DNA of 35,980 bases from Microcaldota archaeon (lineage in GTDB: Archaea; Micrarchaeota; Micrarchaeia; Micrarchaeales; CABMGC01), in contig JAJZLN010000029.1 in assembly GCA_021803425.1 (NCBI GenBank), positions 1-35,980 on the forward strand. The letters are read 5' to 3'. Positions within the stretch are counted from its first letter, which is position 1; each line of letters opens with the position of its first letter. Positions 9,108-26,443 of the stretch are shown piece after piece. The notes beneath the pieces are model-generated. The model saw only the letters and a list, made by a program, of their open reading frames with translations. It did not search any database and had not been told where the DNA came from. Made by a program: the position numbers and the translations under genes.

Positions 9108-10145
9108 ATGCCTAAAAACAACAATTCCAGCCGCGCAATTGAGAAATACCAGAAGACCGTCAAGCAGCTCAGGCTCATAACGTCAATATCTCTCGTGCTA
9201 GGCATAATCGCCATATTCATCTCTATATATTCAATATATGTGGTCACTCCTGGCTTTTACTCCTTGCTTTCTTCTCACGTAACTACAGCTGCAAACAATA
9301 CTACGGCGCAAACCTCAAAGTTTCCCACATTTGCGGGAATAGACGACCCTCTTAATTCGACCCAGCTCTCCGTTATAAACAATGCGCCCAATTCATATTT
9401 TGAGACTGCAGGCTTGATGTACCTTAACGGGTCGATTTCCAATCCAATCTTCACGAAAACAAATGCCGTCACCTCATTCACTTACAATAACAAAACATCC
9501 GTCGTATACCTTGGCTCTATAACATGCATATTCTGCGGGGAAAACAGGTGGGCGATGGCTCTTGCTCTCTCAAGGTTCGGCAACTTCTCAAAACTTTTTA
9601 TCGGGTATTCATCCCTTAATGACGGCGATGTGCCCACATTGTACTGGACTTCGCTTGACTACAACACTTCAACAACTACGATAGGCAATTACTATTCAAG
9701 CAGGTACATAAATTTCTTTTCAATAGACGATGTAAAGCCGATAACCGGTGGATTCAACCTAAACACCATGCCGCAGATGCTCTCAAACATAAAGGCGCGC
9801 GGCAACCAGACATATGTAAATGCCTTTGATTATATAATCAATCTTAGCTCAAGGAATGCAACCGCATTCACCGGCACCCCGTATACTATATGGGGCAATT
9901 ATCAATTTGAGGGCGCAGATGCTGCTGATTTCGGAAATTCGACTCCTACTAGCGGGACAGTGGCGCTGTCATACATGACCCATGCACAGGTATTCTCGCA
10001 GCTTGCACATCCTTCTGACCAGTTTGCATGGACGGAATATGCCGCTGCAGACGTTTACACGGCAGCAATCTGCAAGTCTATAGGCAACTCTGCCTCCGTA
10101 TGCTCCCTGCCTTCAATACAGGAGATCGAAACCGCATTCAAGTGA
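9108..10145 (+). CDS. DUF929 membrane-anchored thioredoxin-like protein
   Basis: A 345-residue protein with a basic N-terminus, one transmembrane helix (about 25-46), and a large extracellular domain preceded by a Thr/Asn-rich linker. The domain matches DUF929, an archaeal family with a thioredoxin-like CxxC. Here the motif is 'VVYLGSITCIFCGENRW' (Cys140, Cys143), which resembles the strand-CxxC-helix of thiol-disulphide oxidoreductases. Several N-x-S/T sequons fit an exterior location. The next gene, five bases downstream, is a membrane protein with a Cys-Gly-Cys motif, so the pair may move electrons or make disulphides in cell-surface proteins; that is inference. GGAG lies 14 bases before the ATG, farther than usual, and a competing ATG at 9100 opens only a 26-codon frame. 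Confidence 0.75.
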   Translation: MPKNNNSSRAIEKYQKTVKQLRLITSISLVLGIIAIFISIYSIYVVTPGFYSLLSSHVTTAANNTTAQTSKFPTFAGIDDPLNSTQLSVINNAPNSYFETAGLMYLNGSISNPIFTKTNAVTSFTYNNKTSVVYLGSITCIFCGENRWAMALALSRFGNFSKLFIGYSSLNDGDVPTLYWTSLDYNTSTTTIGNYYSSRYINFFSIDDVKPITGGFNLNTMPQMLSNIKARGNQTYVNAFDYIINLSSRNATAFTGTPYTIWGNYQFEGADAADFGNSTPTSGTVALSYMTHAQVFSQLAHPSDQFAWTEYAAADVYTAAICKSIGNSASVCSLPSIQEIETAFK

Positions 10146-10150
10146 TTTAG

Positions 10151-10648
10151 ATGATCAAGAGCAGCAGGCGGCTTATCGCCCTGAAGAGGATATTCGAGTC
10201 ACCTGTTTATGTTGTACTTGCAGTTGCGGCTGCAATAATATTCTATTTCCTGTTTGAATATCTTGTTGCTTCCTCTAATCATGGCTTGCTCATATTCTTC
10301 ATACCTCAATATTACATATATGCGCTAGTGGCTACTTCAGGAATCCTCCTATCGATAAGTGTTTTTACGGTAATGCACTCATTATCAAGGAAGCTTTCTG
10401 GCGCGACAGGCGGCATATTCAGTGTGCTTCTCCCTTCAGTTGGAGGCCTTGTCGTGAGCTGCGGCTGCGAATTTCCAATACTAGCATCTTTACTTCTCTT
10501 CTTCGGAATCAACACTTTTGAGGCGATAGGATTGATATCAATAATCAGCACGTATCAGACCTGGATAATTTCAGGAATGGTTCTAATAAATCTTGCACTT
10601 ATCTATTTCTATGCAGGCTTGGCATATCCGCCCCGAAGAAAGCGCTAA
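10151..10648 (+). CDS. Membrane protein with intramembrane Cys-Gly-Cys motif
   Basis: A 165-residue protein with four predicted transmembrane segments (about 18-38, 56-74, 92-118 and 124-155) and basic ends. Between a Gly-rich loop and the third helix lies 'VVSCGCEFPILA' (Cys104, Cys106), a CxC placed at a membrane interface. It follows the DUF929 gene by five bases and is almost certainly co-transcribed. A CxC pair in a membrane protein next to a thioredoxin-like partner suggests thiol/disulphide exchange or metal handling, by analogy with DsbD/VKOR-type partners, but it is not recognisably a member of those families. Function unknown. Confidence 0.65.
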   Translation: MIKSSRRLIALKRIFESPVYVVLAVAAAIIFYFLFEYLVASSNHGLLIFFIPQYYIYALVATSGILLSISVFTVMHSLSRKLSGATGGIFSVLLPSVGGLVVSCGCEFPILASLLLFFGINTFEAIGLISIISTYQTWIISGMVLINLALIYFYAGLAYPPRRKR

Positions 10649-10712: not shown

Positions 10713-13388
10713 TCAAGCCTTTACCTTTTGCATCATTCTCCTTTCCTTGAGGAACCTGTCCCAATAAGGCTCGCTGGACTTAAGCTGATCCCTCAGTATA
10801 GGGGCGTAAGTCGTCTCTATCAATTTTCCGTCATGCGCCTTCATGTTCATGAACAGGTATCCATTCAGCTTGTCTTCAGAAAGGAATGGAATATGCAAGG
10901 TCTTGTTGTGTGGGTTTGTAGCCGTATTCTGCATCGTAGGCCCTTCAGCAACTACTGAATTCTTTGTTGTAACCTCTTTGGATTCATGCCAATGGCCTCC
11001 AACTACCGCCTGCGCCCCGCTTCTCTGCGCTTCAAGGAAGGCCTCTATGCCATGCTCCTTTGCAGGATGCGAATGCCTCAGGTTAAATTCAATTCCATTG
11101 AACCAGAACGTTTCTGCGGCTATGTCGCTTCCGCTTCCGGTCTTTACATGCGTTTTCCAGTCATCAGGGAGCTTTCCGGACTTCTCAAACCCTTCAAGCA
11201 GCATGTCTATATGCGCTTTCAGCATTGTTGCTTCGTCGTGCTGCCCATCCCTGTGGGTCTTATTGTAGTGGTTGCCTGATATTATGGCTACATATCCCCC
11301 TCTTGAAACAACATCCAATACTAATTCCTTAACTGATTCTACGAATACTGCAGCCTGGGAATCTATGTTGGAAAGCACGTTTTTATCCTGCCTTTCGTAC
11401 CTTTCAAGCTTGGCGCGCATTATCTCATCTTCATTCAGACCTTTATTCTTAAGCCAGCTCACATATTCTGTCATTATTTCCGTATTTGCCTCCGGTCTTT
11501 CCACATACTTGAAGTTGCCGAGGTTTCCTTCTATATTATCTCCGTCAAGCACAAGCATATCGACCTTCTTGTTAAGAGCGTCTTTTGCTGCTGCTCTAAG
11601 CATTTCAATGCTTCCATAATTACCTACATGGGCATCTGTGATTACTGCAACTTTTATATCCTCTGCAGCTTCGGGCATTTTGTCTTTGGCATTAGGCACC
11701 AACGATAAAATAAGCTTTTCATCTGCATATGCAAGGTCTCCGTCCTTTATCTCCGAAGGCCTTTTGCTGGATAATATGGCCCTCTCAAGTTCAGGGTCGT
11801 GGCCAGCCACTTTCTCATGCGTGCCTTCGCCAAGTGCCTTGACAAGCTGTTCAGCAGCGCCTGCCTGCTCTATATCATCTTTTATTCTTTCTTCCTTTAG
11901 CAGGGGCACCCCCAAGGTCTTGTGTGCAACGGATCCGTCTCCATGCACTTGCACCACGCTGGCACTCTGGTCAAGTAGCATTTTGGATCCGTCAGATTCA
12001 TCGGTTTTTACTCTGTTAAGGTAGGTTTTCGTGCTCTCTGCAACGGAGAAGAATGGGCCTTTTGACAAGGCAGCAACAACAGTGCTTGACTGGTTTTCCC
12101 AGGCTTCCATCGAAAAGGAGCTATATCCGTTTCTAGATCCGATAAGCACATTCAGCGGCGTGTTGTCTATCTTTCTTTTCTCCTCCTCCATTCCTTTAAA
12201 TGTCACGTATGCCTCTCTTACAAATGCCGTATTGCTGCTCTTCTTGTATTTACTTGAAGATATTCCGAGACCATCCGTGATTATCACGTTAAATTCAAAC
12301 CCGTTGATTTTATTGCGGTAAATTGACAGCTTCTCTTCCTGGATTGTTACCTTTCTCGTCCTTCCTATTGCGTTCTTTAGTATCGTCCTATAATTATTTT
12401 CGGCTAATCGGTCAACAATGTCATTCACATCTTTAGGTAGGGGTATGTGCCCCGTAAACATGTGTATGCCTGCGCTATTCACCATCAATTCCTTAGACGC
12501 AGTTCTGGAAACCGCTTCATTATACCTTTTTGTCAAGGCTTTTTGCCTGTTTCCTATCGCCTTTATATCCGATCTTAGCTTTTCATATTCCTCGGTCTCT
12601 TCAGGGGTCCTTTGTTCGGCCTTCTTCGCTTCGTTAAGCTTACGTGTAACCTCTGTCATCTGACTGTTTGTCTCATTAAGCATCTCATCTATCTTCTCCT
12701 TGTCAAGTTCCGTGTGTATCTGCATATTCAATAATTCAAGCAGCGACTTCCTTTCCTGCAGCTCATCCAGCTCCTCTGAATTGATCTTAAAGTTAAGCTT
12801 CGCACGTTCCAGCTCCTTCTTAAGGCTCTCCCTTTCATGGTCGTTTGCAGCTTCCTCTATCCTTCTTGGTATGTTGGTTTTGGATTCTGAAAGGCTCTTC
12901 ATCTGCTCCTTGCGTGCATCTATCTCTTTTTTTATTGCTTCTATTTTCGGTTCTATTATGTTTTCAAATCTCTTCTGCTTTATCTTTTTGACCGCATCCA
13001 TGTACATCCTTGATAGGTCAAGCTTGAGCGTCTCAAGGTTCTTCTCATCGGCCTTGCCCATAACGTATATAAATGCCGCATTTTCAGGAAGCGCAGATGA
13101 AAGCCTTTCAATATGCGGCTTTATGACCGCAGCAGCGCCTTCCAGGTCCTGAACTCCGCTCCTTATCACCCTTAACTTGTCCTTGTTCCTTTCCCCTCCC
13201 CTATTTATCGGCATTTCCGGAAGCACGCCCCCGTTCACTACAAAGACATCGGGCTTCTCATTCTCCTTGAGGTTCTTTATATAGTGCGCAAGTCCTATCA
13301 GTCCGTCTTCATTCATGTATGTCTTTGCGCCGTTGATCTCAGACACTACAAATATGTTAAAAGACTTGCTTTCAATGCCACCTTCCAT
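10713..13388 (-). CDS. Tandem metallophosphoesterase protein with coiled-coil insertion
   Basis: Numbering is for the 900-residue ORF. The C-terminal domain (about 586-860) is a complete calcineurin-like metallophosphoesterase: 'VITDAHVG' (591-598), 'VLDGDNIEGN' (622-631), 'IISGNHYNK' (711-719), 'RHSHP' (780-784) and 'VVGGHWHES' (804-812). The N-terminal half looks like a second, degenerate copy: 'IFVVSEINGA' (21-30), 'VFVVNGGVLPE' (57-67), 'FIYVMGKADEKN' (115-126) and 'VLIGSRNGYSSF' (423-434), each missing the metal ligands. A charged coiled coil (about 135-305) is inserted in that copy. There is no signal or membrane segment, so it is cytoplasmic. I use the ATG at 13388 because a TATA-like box (13421-13430) lies 38 bases upstream of it but too close to the ATG at 13415. 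The substrate is unknown: nucleic acid, nucleotide or phosphoprotein are all possible. Confidence 0.8.
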   Translation of the reverse strand: MEGGIESKSFNIFVVSEINGAKTYMNEDGLIGLAHYIKNLKENEKPDVFVVNGGVLPEMPINRGGERNKDKLRVIRSGVQDLEGAAAVIKPHIERLSSALPENAAFIYVMGKADEKNLETLKLDLSRMYMDAVKKIKQKRFENIIEPKIEAIKKEIDARKEQMKSLSESKTNIPRRIEEAANDHERESLKKELERAKLNFKINSEELDELQERKSLLELLNMQIHTELDKEKIDEMLNETNSQMTEVTRKLNEAKKAEQRTPEETEEYEKLRSDIKAIGNRQKALTKRYNEAVSRTASKELMVNSAGIHMFTGHIPLPKDVNDIVDRLAENNYRTILKNAIGRTRKVTIQEEKLSIYRNKINGFEFNVIITDGLGISSSKYKKSSNTAFVREAYVTFKGMEEEKRKIDNTPLNVLIGSRNGYSSFSMEAWENQSSTVVAALSKGPFFSVAESTKTYLNRVKTDESDGSKMLLDQSASVVQVHGDGSVAHKTLGVPLLKEERIKDDIEQAGAAEQLVKALGEGTHEKVAGHDPELERAILSSKRPSEIKDGDLAYADEKLILSLVPNAKDKMPEAAEDIKVAVITDAHVGNYGSIEMLRAAAKDALNKKVDMLVLDGDNIEGNLGNFKYVERPEANTEIMTEYVSWLKNKGLNEDEIMRAKLERYERQDKNVLSNIDSQAAVFVESVKELVLDVVSRGGYVAIISGNHYNKTHRDGQHDEATMLKAHIDMLLEGFEKSGKLPDDWKTHVKTGSGSDIAAETFWFNGIEFNLRHSHPAKEHGIEAFLEAQRSGAQAVVGGHWHESKEVTTKNSVVAEGPTMQNTATNPHNKTLHIPFLSEDKLNGYLFMNMKAHDGKLIETTYAPILRDQLKSSEPYWDRFLKERRMMQKVKA

Positions 13389-13533
13389 AAATTCCCACTG
13401 ATAATTAAATACCATGCTATCTTTTTAAATCTGTTCTGCAAACTTGTTTTTTCAAGTTCCATGATTTTGTACTGAATAGAGTTTGTCGTTGACAAGGAAT
13501 AAAGTTAAAAGCTTTATTATACAATATGAGACC

Positions 13534-20396: not shown

Positions 20397-21423
20397 GCTT
20401 TTAAGTCGAGTTTGATTAAGGGGGGGGGGGCTAAAGACCAAAAAGATTCCAGTATACGCTGCACTTGCAGCTTCTGCATTTACTATAATAGCAGTTTCAA
20501 TGATGTTGCTGTTCAGCACTACAGTGAAAGCAAGTTCTTATACCTCTAATGTTATAGCGTCTGTTTCTGTAGGTGGAGTATGCTTCATAACTACTACAAA
20601 CACACTTGTTAATTTCGGAAATATAGATCCTACCCAAGGAACTCCCGTTTCAAATGACATAGCGTTTGCAGATTCATTCGGTAATGAACCTGCAAACATT
20701 CTTGTCGCAGGCACAAATTGGATAAATGAACCAGGCTACGGCTCAAACACGTTCTATGTTTCAAACACGCTTTGGAATCCGACATCGGCAAGCCCCGGCG
20801 TTGGCAATGCCTTAACATTATTTACAGGATTTACATCGCTTTTCGACACCCAATTGCAGATTGCGGCTCCGAATCCGTCATTTCCCAGAACTCAAACACA
20901 ACTGTTCGTAGGGGTGAACATACCTGGCGGGGCTCCTGCAGGTCCTTATACCCAGAATATAGTTCCAGGATACTCCTGCCTTACGTATCCAAACCCCTTC
21001 TCAGTTCAGAATGTAATTGCAACTGCAAACGTGCAACCGGCATGCTTCATAAGTCTAAGCACAAATGCGATAGATTTCGGTTCAATAACCCCAACCAACA
21101 GCGTACCAACTGCAAATGCTGTTTCAGTTAATGACCCTGGAGGCAATATACCTGCAAATATACTTGTAGATGCAGGAAACTGGATATCCGGCTCAAATAC
21201 ATTCTATGTTTCAAACACGCTTTGGAATCCTGTAACTGAACCAACATATACTGGAACTCCGCTTAATCTAGCTCCAAATCTTGTAGATACGCTCATACAG
21301 GAGCCAGCGCCCATTATTGCAAATCCAACAACTTCAAATACCCTATACTTTGGTCTTGCAGTACCTGCTGCACAGTCGCCAGGCCTGTACACACAGAACG
21401 TATACATTGAGAATGAGTGCTGA
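20394..21423 (+). CDS. Exported surface protein with a frameshift at a poly-G tract (putatively phase-variable)
   Basis: Translation from the ATG at 20394 gives 'MAFKSSLIKGGG' and then, with 11 G, leaves frame and stops at 20547-20549. If the tract had 10 or 13 G, the same start would read into 'LKTKKIPVYAALAASAFTIIAVSMM', a textbook signal peptide, and on through 307 further codons from 20500. The ORF-track start at 20500 would cut off the basic n-region and most of the hydrophobic core. The mature part is two copies of one module, about 125-135 residues each. Each begins with a Cys ('VCFITT', 'ACFISL'), has 'FGxIxPT', 'PANILV', 'NW' and 'GSNTFYVSNTLWNP', and ends with 'YTQNxxxxxxC'. A related module ends the 1401-residue protein downstream. 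It is probably a secreted or surface layer protein; the function is unknown. A real frameshift, strain variation or a homopolymer sequencing error could also explain the frame break. Confidence 0.7.
20420..20430 (+). repeat. Poly-G tract, 11 G, inside the signal-peptide region
   Basis: Eleven consecutive G in otherwise AT-rich DNA, 24 bases after the start codon. It is the longest G run I saw in the window. Polymerase slippage in such tracts drives phase variation in bacterial surface genes. Here the tract length decides whether the ATG at 20394 is in frame with the exported protein: 10 or 13 G would be in frame, and 11 is out of frame. Confidence 0.9.
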
Positions 21424-22237: not shown

Positions 22238-25200
22238 ATGAAGTATACAATATTAGTAGCATTAGCTTTTGCACACATATTTTTCCTTGCCCATGCCTCA
22301 GCAATGAATAATACCACTATAAGCAATGCCACTTCAGCTTCTGCCACAAACTCACTGCCTAAAAACCAGTCCCTAACCAATAACATTAATACTACCAGCC
22401 AAAATATGCCATACCAGCTCACATTTCCAGCTGAAATAAGCAGTGAAGCATCCCAAACACTCCACAGTAAAGCATCTTCAATTCTATCAAACAGAATAAG
22501 TTCTAGAAAGAGGAATGCAGCATTACCGAATATTTTAGAAGTTACCGAATCAATAAGCAACTTCACCAGCATAAACAAACTGCCAGTTAATCTGCAGAAT
22601 ATTTTTAATGGAACAAATAAGATATATACTGAAAATGTGCTTATTGCTTATGCGGCCTTAAACTCGAGCTTTCAAGCTCAAAATTCATATAACAACACAA
22701 ACTTCACATACGTCAATATATACTCTTCATTATATGGAAATAATGCAACCTCTTTTGCATCATACCTGCCTCCTTTTATTCGGTCACCGGCATTTTCTTC
22801 TCCTAATTCATCAGTTAGAAGCATATATGTCAAGTTAAACAAAGGGGAAGGAGATGCAGTAACGAAAATAATATTTCACGGCAATACTACTGAATATGGA
22901 TTCAATAAGCCCATATACCTCTCATTTAACATAAGCAGCCAAATAAATGATTCGAATATAATAAGTGCAGAATATAATTTTTCTGTAAGTAAGCAATGGA
23001 TTTCAAATTTAAATCTTAGCCCATACCAGATCTCATTATATAAATACGAAAATGGCAAATGGGAGCAAATGCCTACCTTGCTTACTGGATCTAATGGCAC
23101 ATACTTCACATATGTAGGAATCTCAAACTCTTTCTCTACGTATATAGTGTCATTCAATCAAAATGCCAGTGTAGGGGATTTGAATCCTGAATCAGTGACT
23201 TTGCACCTTGGATATAAATTATATTTCTGCGAAGCTGGTGCAAATTATACCTTTTCAACATCAGGATCGCCATTTTCATGGATACAGGATGTTGGCTCCC
23301 CTTCCGGGTCTCCACCAAGCGGAGAAAACGCAAGCATAGGACATCAGTCAAGCAACGTCTGCTCAGCATATACCACTAATTCTACGTTTCCTGGTCTTGC
23401 TGTTGCAGGAATAGGCGTAAACCAGACAAATTATATTCTTTTTAAAAATTCATCAAGCAGCTCATCTTCCTCTAACTTGAAGTATGAAGTTGCTAAGAAC
23501 AATTCTTTTGTATTGATAATGACCGCTTCAGGGTATTATGGATTAACCGGAGTGTCAATCCCAAAAGGCTGCAATGTAGACGAATTTGTAAACAATACCG
23601 ACACATTCGAATCGGCTTATATAGCCACATGCCAAGGGCAGCAGGAAGGGACATATTATGTAAATGATTCTCTTTCCTTTTTAGGGTCTTCTACCCTTGC
23701 TGCGTATGTTTTTCTTCCATACACGCTTACGCTTGATGATAATATACCTACTGGTGAGATAGAAACGAATGGCGCAACGTATCCATCGGGAAGCACAATA
23801 CAGGTAATAGGAACAAATTCAGTTTATGCAATTGCGCCGGCAAATTTTGTATTTGTAAATTGGACGACAAGCAATCCTGTTAATCTATCATTATCCAATT
23901 ATACTAGCAATCCCGCAATCCTTACAGTAAATGGGAATGGGACTCTTACTGCAAATTTCAAAGTACAAACCGAATTTACAGAATCCGGACTTCCAAGCGG
24001 ATCAAGATGGGATGTAATATATGACAATATATTTCTGAGCAGTACATCCCCAACAATCAAGTTTTTTACCAATCCTGGAAACTACACATTTTCAATTCCT
24101 GTCCAAAACATCGCTGGCGCAGCCTATGAGCCATCTCCTTCTTCAGGCTATTTAGTTTCAGGAAATTCAACCCAGATAAATTTCACCCCATTGGTAGCTA
24201 ACATATTCGTCCCCAGCAACTCTGTTGTAGATGTAGGGCAGTATGAAACACTTGTAGCAAATGCATCTGGCGGAGTCCTGCCTTATATTTACAATATATC
24301 TATCTCAAATTCGACATTTCCTTCAATTATAATAAACTCATTTGTATCCCCTAAGACAGTGTTGTCTTTATTTTCAGCAACATTTCAGACAACAATATCA
24401 AATTTAGATAATTCTCCGGACTCAGCAAATGTGGTTGTATCTGATGCATTTCCAGCTAAAGCATATTCTCAATACCGCAGATTTTATGTATATCCTGCCC
24501 TAGCTGCGCCTAGAATAACATCTCCAACTCTACCTATAACTCTTGATATGGGCCAATCTCTTAGTATATCTGCATCTGCTCCTTCAGGCGGAACAGGAAA
24601 TTTCCAATACATATGGTCTGTTGTTAATGGCACTTACTGTCCAGGGTTTATTCAGCAATCCAATACGCTTTCATTTATTTATTCTCCAACATCCCCAACA
24701 AGCTTATGTGAATTTGAGATTACTGCAAAGGATATTGGAACGTCTACGCCCGTCTATGTAACTTCAAATCCTACATCAAAAATATCTGTAGATATATACC
24801 CTGAAACCACTCCTAAAGGAGTAAAATTTTATGTGCCTATAAACATCACAAATTCGCAACCAGCCCCAACCCCTCAACAATTTCAGCAGTTCATTCAATT
24901 AAACCTTCTCAATTACTCAGAATATGCCTCCTATAACGGTAATACTGCAAATTTTGAATTCTTTTATGCAAACGGAACAATTATTCCTTCATGGATAGAA
25001 TCAAACAGCTCGAATATTGTTTCAATCTGGCTCAAGCTTTTAACCAGCATTCCCGCAGACTCAAAGACGACGATATATCTGGGTTTCTATAACAAGAGCT
25101 CAAATATTCTGTCAAATTCCGGCTTATTTGGAATAGGCGAAGCGCCGCAGCTAAGCTTACAATACGGAAAATATGATGATGGACAGAGTGTATTTCTGAG

Positions 25201-26443
25201 TTACTTCAATGGTGATACATCAATCAATAATTTTTCTGTATCAAGTGGGTACAACATCACACAAGTCGTTGGAGTCCAGATGCCAAACGGCAACAATGGC
25301 AATGTATTATATATAACTGGCTATAATAGGCACGACTCCGAAAGATACATATCTTTCGTTTATAATTTTGGATATAAAATTCAGCCAAGTATAATTGAAT
25401 CATCTTCTGAGCTGCATGGAAATCTTGGCACAGCGCAGGGAATAGCAGCGGTTCTCAATTCAACATCAATATCCTCAGCAAGCGGCATAGGCGTCACAAT
25501 GGGATATGGTCAAACATACTTCTCACAGGAACATGAAAATTTTGGATCAGTGTCAGTTGATATCAATCCGCAAGGGTCTTCAGTATCGTCTTGGATATAC
25601 GGCAGCGTATTCTTCTCAGGCGCATCTTCATCTTCGTGGAGCGGTTATATATCGCCGCAATTATACTACACAAATAATGGGTATTCTGGCAATGTATCTT
25701 TTCAACCTATAAAATCTGGAGCATACCTTTATATGAGCAGCTTGGGTGCGTCAGGCCAGAAGAAATATCCTTATAATCTCTATATAAATTGGGAAAGGTC
25801 AAGAGCAATCCCACCAAATGGCGTAATGCCTTACGTCTCTTTCTCAAACATATTCGGTCTAAGCAGATTCATTGAAAGCGGGCTGCCACCAAACTCTATA
25901 TGGAATGTAACTTATGATAATATCATTAATTATTCAAATACAGATTCGATAGCATTTTCAACATTTCCTGGAAAATATCCTTTTTCAATACCAAATCAGA
26001 CTGTAAATGGCATAACGTATTCGCCATCTCCTGAAATAGGCTATCTTATTGCTGGAAATATTACAAACATAATTTTTTCCAAGGTAATAGCCTGCACAAT
26101 ATCATTAAATACATCTTCATTTTCATTTACTGGCATTTATCCTAACACCAGCTTGAACACAGACTTTGCCATAAAAGACACCAATGATGGGGAATTCAAG
26201 GCCCTCATATTATTATATGGAGCAAATTGGTTGGGGTCTATGCAATTTGGAGTAAGCAATACATCATGGTCGAGCTCAATAAATACCCCATTTATAAATT
26301 CAAACAAGCTAAGCGCAAGCCTGACTTCAACAAATCTGTATGCATACCCTAACGGCACAAACGTATATTTCGGAATAAATATACCTGGCGGAATTCCAAA
26401 AGGAAACTATACACAAAACATATACATCGAAAATAGCTGTTAG
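22238..26443 (+). CDS. Large secreted adhesin-like surface protein
   Basis: 1401 residues with a signal peptide ('YTILVALAFAHIFFLAHASA') and many N-x-S/T sequons. Domains in order: about 195-308, a PGF-pre-PGF-like domain ('YNFSVSKQWISNLNLSPYQISLYKYENGKW'); about 495-575, an InlB-like repeat ('NGATYPSGSTIQV...FVNWTT'); about 578-652, the first 'TEFTESGLPSGSRWDVIYDN' repeat, a module common in archaeal secreted proteins; about 655-855, two Ig/PKD-like domains; about 858-965, a DUF2341-like domain; about 975-1205, a beta-rich region of lectin-like composition; about 1212-1290, a second 'ESGLP' repeat; and about 1290-1401, the Cys-bounded module shared with the 20394 gene, ending 'YTQNIYIENSC'. 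There is no C-terminal anchor helix or sorting motif, so it is secreted or held by a partner. Likely an adhesin or envelope protein. Confidence 0.82.
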   Translation: MKYTILVALAFAHIFFLAHASAMNNTTISNATSASATNSLPKNQSLTNNINTTSQNMPYQLTFPAEISSEASQTLHSKASSILSNRISSRKRNAALPNILEVTESISNFTSINKLPVNLQNIFNGTNKIYTENVLIAYAALNSSFQAQNSYNNTNFTYVNIYSSLYGNNATSFASYLPPFIRSPAFSSPNSSVRSIYVKLNKGEGDAVTKIIFHGNTTEYGFNKPIYLSFNISSQINDSNIISAEYNFSVSKQWISNLNLSPYQISLYKYENGKWEQMPTLLTGSNGTYFTYVGISNSFSTYIVSFNQNASVGDLNPESVTLHLGYKLYFCEAGANYTFSTSGSPFSWIQDVGSPSGSPPSGENASIGHQSSNVCSAYTTNSTFPGLAVAGIGVNQTNYILFKNSSSSSSSSNLKYEVAKNNSFVLIMTASGYYGLTGVSIPKGCNVDEFVNNTDTFESAYIATCQGQQEGTYYVNDSLSFLGSSTLAAYVFLPYTLTLDDNIPTGEIETNGATYPSGSTIQVIGTNSVYAIAPANFVFVNWTTSNPVNLSLSNYTSNPAILTVNGNGTLTANFKVQTEFTESGLPSGSRWDVIYDNIFLSSTSPTIKFFTNPGNYTFSIPVQNIAGAAYEPSPSSGYLVSGNSTQINFTPLVANIFVPSNSVVDVGQYETLVANASGGVLPYIYNISISNSTFPSIIINSFVSPKTVLSLFSATFQTTISNLDNSPDSANVVVSDAFPAKAYSQYRRFYVYPALAAPRITSPTLPITLDMGQSLSISASAPSGGTGNFQYIWSVVNGTYCPGFIQQSNTLSFIYSPTSPTSLCEFEITAKDIGTSTPVYVTSNPTSKISVDIYPETTPKGVKFYVPINITNSQPAPTPQQFQQFIQLNLLNYSEYASYNGNTANFEFFYANGTIIPSWIESNSSNIVSIWLKLLTSIPADSKTTIYLGFYNKSSNILSNSGLFGIGEAPQLSLQYGKYDDGQSVFLSYFNGDTSINNFSVSSGYNITQVVGVQMPNGNNGNVLYITGYNRHDSERYISFVYNFGYKIQPSIIESSSELHGNLGTAQGIAAVLNSTSISSASGIGVTMGYGQTYFSQEHENFGSVSVDINPQGSSVSSWIYGSVFFSGASSSSWSGYISPQLYYTNNGYSGNVSFQPIKSGAYLYMSSLGASGQKKYPYNLYINWERSRAIPPNGVMPYVSFSNIFGLSRFIESGLPPNSIWNVTYDNIINYSNTDSIAFSTFPGKYPFSIPNQTVNGITYSPSPEIGYLIAGNITNIIFSKVIACTISLNTSSFSFTGIYPNTSLNTDFAIKDTNDGEFKALILLYGANWLGSMQFGVSNTSWSSSINTPFINSNKLSASLTSTNLYAYPNGTNVYFGINIPGGIPKGNYTQNIYIENSC

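Follow-up and report, generated by a model that had tools for sequence, protein, structure and literature searches.

Several described proteins built on the calcineurin-like phosphoesterase fold have to be considered as closest relatives of the protein presented here. VPS29 and other calcineurin-like scaffolds use the fold of metallophosphoesterases (MPEs) for protein binding, yet they stand alone and are not fused to an active MPE. PolD DP1 has a calcineurin-like phosphodiesterase (PDE) fold as well, and its homologues among the B-subunits of eukaryotic DNA polymerases contain a PDE domain that was turned into an inactive scaffold (PMC4996933). Catalytic roles are described for a particular histidine in Mre11 (H85) as well as in DP1 (H451) (PMC4996933).

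Here, we present a gene from a member of Candidatus Micrarchaeota (genome assembly of 881 kb, 93% complete) that encodes two halves with predicted MPE folds in one single chain, the first with a lost and the second with an intact metal site. It was found in a stretch of 35,980 nucleotides that was analysed as a whole and is designated the window. With a probability of roughly 75% we consider the C-terminal copy to be a two-metal phosphodiesterase and the N-terminal copy its dead scaffold or regulator, the pair likely originating from an ancient MPE duplication.

Gene organization and the C-terminal domain

The open reading frame is located on the minus strand and spans positions 10713-13415 including the stop codon (10713-10715). 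Either of two starts is possible, namely the ATG at 13415 or the in-frame Met10 at 13388. The initial annotation had given an extent of 10713-13388; its end was retained, whereas its start corresponds to Met10 of the longer frame. AF2 was run with 43 family sequences and modelled the whole chain with a pLDDT of 88.2 and a pTM of 0.86, only very low confidence being assigned to residues 1-15. The following parts can be distinguished:

10716..13415, minus strand: whole gene, 900 residues, delimited by the open frame and 48 homologues of 840-1095 residues
11901..13364, minus strand: N-terminal pseudo-metallophosphoesterase domain, residues 18-505 including the insert (AF2 topology, profile match to the C-terminal domain, motif register)
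12366..13055, minus strand: helical insert that separates motif III from motif IV in the dead domain, residues 121-350; six main helices are modelled (AF2 DSSP)
11664..11900, minus strand: interdomain linker, residues 506-584, with the conserved motif (K/R)xPSE (S554, E555)
10791..11663, minus strand: C-terminal MPE domain, predicted to be active, residues 585-875 (Pfam PF00149, E 4e-6; ligands kept in the family; Foldseek matches to GpdQ, PolD DP1 and Rv0805)

The family alignment comprises 48 distinct near-full-length proteins, in which the linker residues S554 and E555 are found 45 and 47 times, respectively. Pfam Metallophos matches the 900-residue protein only once, at residues 587-811. 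In this C-terminal half the ligands of the DxH, GD, GNH, H and GHxH motifs follow each other as D594xH596, GD626, GN715H716, H781 and GH808xH810, so that the complete MPE motif set ascribed to it initially is indeed present. With the exception of H808 each ligand column is kept in 45-48 of the 48 homologues; column 808 contains histidine in 35 and aspartate in 13 of them. These 13 members (e.g., L029, L026 and L024) thus show GDxH instead of GHxH.

A search of the PDB with the C-terminal profile reveals MRE11A, SbcD and PolD DP1 as best matches, all of them weak (E 0.008-0.15), and the weak sequence affinity of the domain to nucleases differs little among several MPE classes. When the whole AF2 model is compared with Foldseek, GpdQ, PolD DP1 and Rv0805 are among the best matches (E 1e-5 to 1e-3) and VPS29 is matched too. 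In the reading we prefer, the C-terminal copy would be a phosphodiesterase with two metals (Mn/Fe type), similar in kind to Mre11, SbcD, PolD DP1 and GpdQ. Its metals, bound by D594, H596, D626, N715, H781, H808 and H810, would activate water while H716 would occupy the place where H85 of Mre11 and H451 of DP1 act. Phosphodiesterase rather than monoesterase activity is what we infer. Perhaps the enzyme is a nuclease, a guess that the weak MRE11A, SbcD and DP1 profile matches favour; the chances of a nucleic-acid substrate are somewhat below even.

The same domain could also belong to a phosphatase or a small-molecule or cyclic-nucleotide phosphodiesterase resembling GpdQ and Rv0805, the dead and the active domain pairing up as a pseudo-dimer. 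Enzymes of the GpdQ type form oligomers around their active sites, and the whole-model comparison has both enzymes among its best matches. The profile matches at sequence level, however, slightly favour Mre11, SbcD and DP1, and the gene is found in no operon context indicating small-molecule metabolism. We regard this alternative as possible but clearly the less probable one.

The helical insert and the Mre11/Rad50 question

The motif III strand of the N-terminal domain (114-118) and its motif IV strands (356-380) are separated by an insert with modelled helices at 121-146, 155-188, 192-235, 239-264, 271-303 and 328-350. Its length amounts to 205-270 residues in most homologues and to 145-148 residues in two relatives from elsewhere in the class. 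Formerly it was described as a coiled coil of about 170 residues; the location behind motif III was correct but the region is longer (approximately 121-350) and consists of several helices with short turns instead of one long hairpin. Helices of 23-44 residues that are connected in this manner point to an antiparallel bundle that does not extend far, and not to an arm of the Rad50 type.

This is of relevance for the proposal, also made at the outset, that the protein recalls a Mre11/Rad50- or SbcD-like machine compressed into a single chain without an ATPase. An ATPase is indeed absent from the chain, and there is some likeness to Mre11 and SbcD, although this likeness is weak (PDB profile E 0.008), concerns the C-terminal domain only and is shown by PolD DP1 as well. 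Beyond that, the idea of a compressed machine is not supported, because the insert is part of the dead MPE, Mre11 and Rad50 are separate proteins, and a CxxC zinc hook is absent from the insert of all 48 homologues. A less demanding version would be a DNA-end processing nuclease similar to Mre11 or SbcD, with the insert as a short Rad50-like arm and the ATPase supplied in trans. In its favour are the PDB profile search with the C-terminal domain, led by weak matches to MRE11A and SbcD, and a low-significance resemblance of the insert helices to SMC coils, but the latter is expected for any coiled coil. Besides the missing zinc hook, two things speak against it: canonical Mre11 and Rad50 are encoded elsewhere in the same genome (together with DP1 and two PdeM-like phosphoesterases), and an ATPase is not linked, no gene of the SMC/Rad50 type being a conserved neighbour in the gene contexts compared. 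This explanation appears improbable.

The N-terminal half

Structure prediction was proposed early as a check, an N-terminal fold unrelated to MPEs being the outcome that would speak against the assignment; the prediction did not give this outcome. Modelled alone (pLDDT 86.6, pTM 0.80), the N-terminal half is predicted to have calcineurin-like topology with the strand order of the C-terminal half. Its eleven strands (18-25, 57-61, 114-118, 356-359, 363-370, 373-380, 421-426, 432-438, 446-451, 485-491 and 496-501) pair one to one with those of the C-terminal half (585-593, 620-624, 708-712, 757-760, 767-772, 775-780, 803-806, 812-816, 821-824, 852-861 and 864-874), which has only one extra strand of three residues (597-599). 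In both modelled halves each loop of motifs I to V follows its expected strand. Foldseek with the N-terminal half alone retrieves a viral calcineurin-like phosphoesterase and a viral PolD small-subunit-like protein with probability 1.00. The E-values are marginal (2.4e-2 to 2.5e-2, and no match falls below 1e-3), which is probably due to the helices outweighing the rest of the model; the best PDB match is the model of YydB from B. subtilis (9a6c_B; YydB/YydD 9a6c).

The N-terminal profile without the insert matches the C-terminal profile with scores of 38.2 (local, P 1.8e-4) and 35.9 (global, 1e-6), compared with maxima of 17.3 and 8.6 in 100 column shuffles and with 20.4 and 4.8 for the reversed profile. 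This alignment is confident over motifs I-II, and motifs III-V are in register only in the global version. Against the profile of its own family's C-terminal domain the N-terminal profile scores higher than against those of DP1, Mre11 or PdeM, none of which is matched significantly. This favours duplication within the lineage, even if such a difference is not a proof. A PDB sequence search with the N-terminal profile returns essentially coiled-coil proteins only. That the N-terminal half is some other Rossmann-like alpha/beta domain with a coincidental motif register might be concluded from the weak external MPE profile matches and the lack of significant Pfam recognition (best Metallophos E 0.028 among 43 members), but it is very unlikely because the topology equals that of the C-terminal half strand by strand with all motif loops placed, the N-C profile score beats the shuffled-profile control, Metallophos is matched by more members than any other Pfam family (though by only 3 of the 43 searched), and a histidine pair survives at motifs IV and V.

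At the places that correspond to the C-terminal ligands the N-terminal half shows SE26IN, NGG63, GK121A122D, D381 and R428N. The residues aligned with the eight ligands are E26, N28, G63, K121, A122, D381, R428 and G430, i.e., none of the eight is a ligand in this protein. Among the 48 homologues the ligands are retained at these positions, in the same order, 10, 5, 2, 1, 0, 9, 22 and 0 times. Any single N-terminal domain has 0-3 of them and never more, and the motif III histidine and the last histidine of motif V are absent from all N-terminal domains. The same motif order with lost ligands, as read originally from one sequence, is thus a property of the whole family, and a search for homologues with a still active N-terminal site yielded none. 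Two positions exceed the background, namely the first histidine of motif V (22 of 48) and the histidine of motif IV (9 of 48), according to a binomial estimate that ignores relatedness and is indicative only. All nine domains with the motif IV histidine also possess the first one of motif V; in known MPEs these two bind the same metal. They belong to L079, L080, L018, L014, L042, L052, L022, L027 and L030, and in these members half a metal site may persist. Both families of the order include domains with the surviving histidines, as do the two class-level relatives, a pattern that fits decay from a once complete site and not chance. The best conserved columns of the N-terminal half are non-ligand positions, i.e., R104 (48/48), D123 (46), N126 (45), P55, P66, P69 and K285. 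Mean pairwise identity amounts to 27% in the N-terminal core, 27% in the C-terminal domain and 20% in the insert. The equal conservation of both cores means that the dead domain is under selection.

According to the preferred reading of an active and a dead copy, one MPE domain would have been duplicated long ago, leading to a stand-alone two-domain protein; duplication within the lineage seems to us a better explanation than fusion of two MPEs. The N-terminal copy would then have lost its metal site and gained the helical insert, which might reach a substrate or a partner. By analogy with the dead B-subunit MPE in eukaryotic DNA polymerases, this copy may act as built-in scaffold or regulator. 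More speculative, and in our opinion rather doubtful, is a Micrarchaeota-specific nuclease in which the internal pseudoenzyme takes the place of a dimeric MPE's second protomer, with the helical arm choosing the substrate or the partner. Such a chain would amount to an asymmetric “half-dead dimer” that regulates itself.

Distribution, genomic context and comparison with known systems

Of 60 related genomes, 29 contain the gene according to a protein search; at the level of the phylum, a profile search detected it in 49 of 301 genomes. Most members come from two families within a single order. Outside this order, G091 and G157 are convincing members from the same class, and a third class-level match (G080) is very weak. 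Its presence is patchy even within the genus, and one genome (G022) contains two copies. In a scan of genome contigs with patterns from close relatives only Ca. Micrarchaeota matched. Pairwise identities within the family correlate with the DP1 identities of 16 genomes (Mantel r 0.83, p 0.0002), which indicates mostly vertical descent with losses. DP1 and Mre11 were found in all 31 genomes searched; by contrast, the MPE fusion gene is dispensable. No relatives were found in viral contigs and phages, and PHROGs matches comprise generic MPE families only. A role in defence is not supported, as matches in the defence library were weak and mostly due to coiled coils.

Within the genus the gene is flanked on one side by an ABC transporter pair with SecY and on the other by a pair of genes for a DUF929 protein and a membrane protein. 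Outside the genus the neighbours differ and none is conserved, i.e., synteny is restricted to the genus. In the window the second pair is located at 9108-10648 on the plus strand (the DUF929 protein followed by a membrane protein of 165 residues); it is kept beside the MPE gene in the genus, and in the sister family two genomes (L071 and L081) have it close to the MPE gene as well. Elsewhere in the window a protein of 1401 residues, rich in Ser, Thr and Asn (22238-26443, plus strand), is apparently secreted and has no significant Pfam match. It shares one BLAST cluster with the nearby frame of 307 residues at 20500-21423 and is likely a cell-surface protein.

Concerning DP1 itself, a DP2-like frame follows the true DP1 gene by inspection. 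The NCBIfam DP1 model does not match the 900-residue protein, and L088 is above the DP1 cut-off. In L129, L130, L105, L122 and L128 (G046, G037, G010, G047 and G044) the DP1 match or frame spans an in-frame TAG or TGA, which could be due to sequencing error, pseudogene formation or recoding.

A literature search found no paper on a tandem of dead and active MPE or on a Micrarchaeota MPE of such type. As far as searched, the family is real and conserved across the order, and it apparently represents an undescribed fusion of enzyme and pseudoenzyme within a known superfamily and not a new kind of system. In the strongly reduced genomes of these archaea (about 0.9 Mb) a gene for 900 residues is costly to retain. 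This clear tandem pair in the calcineurin-like superfamily, kept across one Micrarchaeota order, offers a natural test of selection that keeps a dead MPE beside a live one, with a parallel in the inactivated PDEs of eukaryotic polymerase B-subunits. As some dead domains retain two histidines of one metal site, the course of decay is traceable by sequence.

On sequence and modelled structure, the anatomy of a dead plus an active MPE sets this protein apart from its known relatives. GpdQ and Rv0805, which Foldseek ranks among the best matches of the whole model, to our knowledge consist of a single domain and have neither a dead partner nor a helical insert. Mre11 and SbcD have the same ligand set as the C-terminal domain and show weak profile similarity to it. 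In contrast with Mre11-Rad50 and SbcCD, whose partner is an ABC-type ATPase with a zinc hook that is usually encoded in linkage, the protein described here has neither a linked Rad50 or SbcC nor a zinc hook, and it carries a second, dead MPE in the chain. The motifs SDxHxGS and GDx(I/V)(E/D)G of the C-terminal domain resemble those of PolD DP1, but true DP1 has a gene of its own here and in all 31 genomes searched. DP1 consists of an OB fold before one PDE, whereas here a predicted dead PDE with a helical insert precedes a presumably active one.
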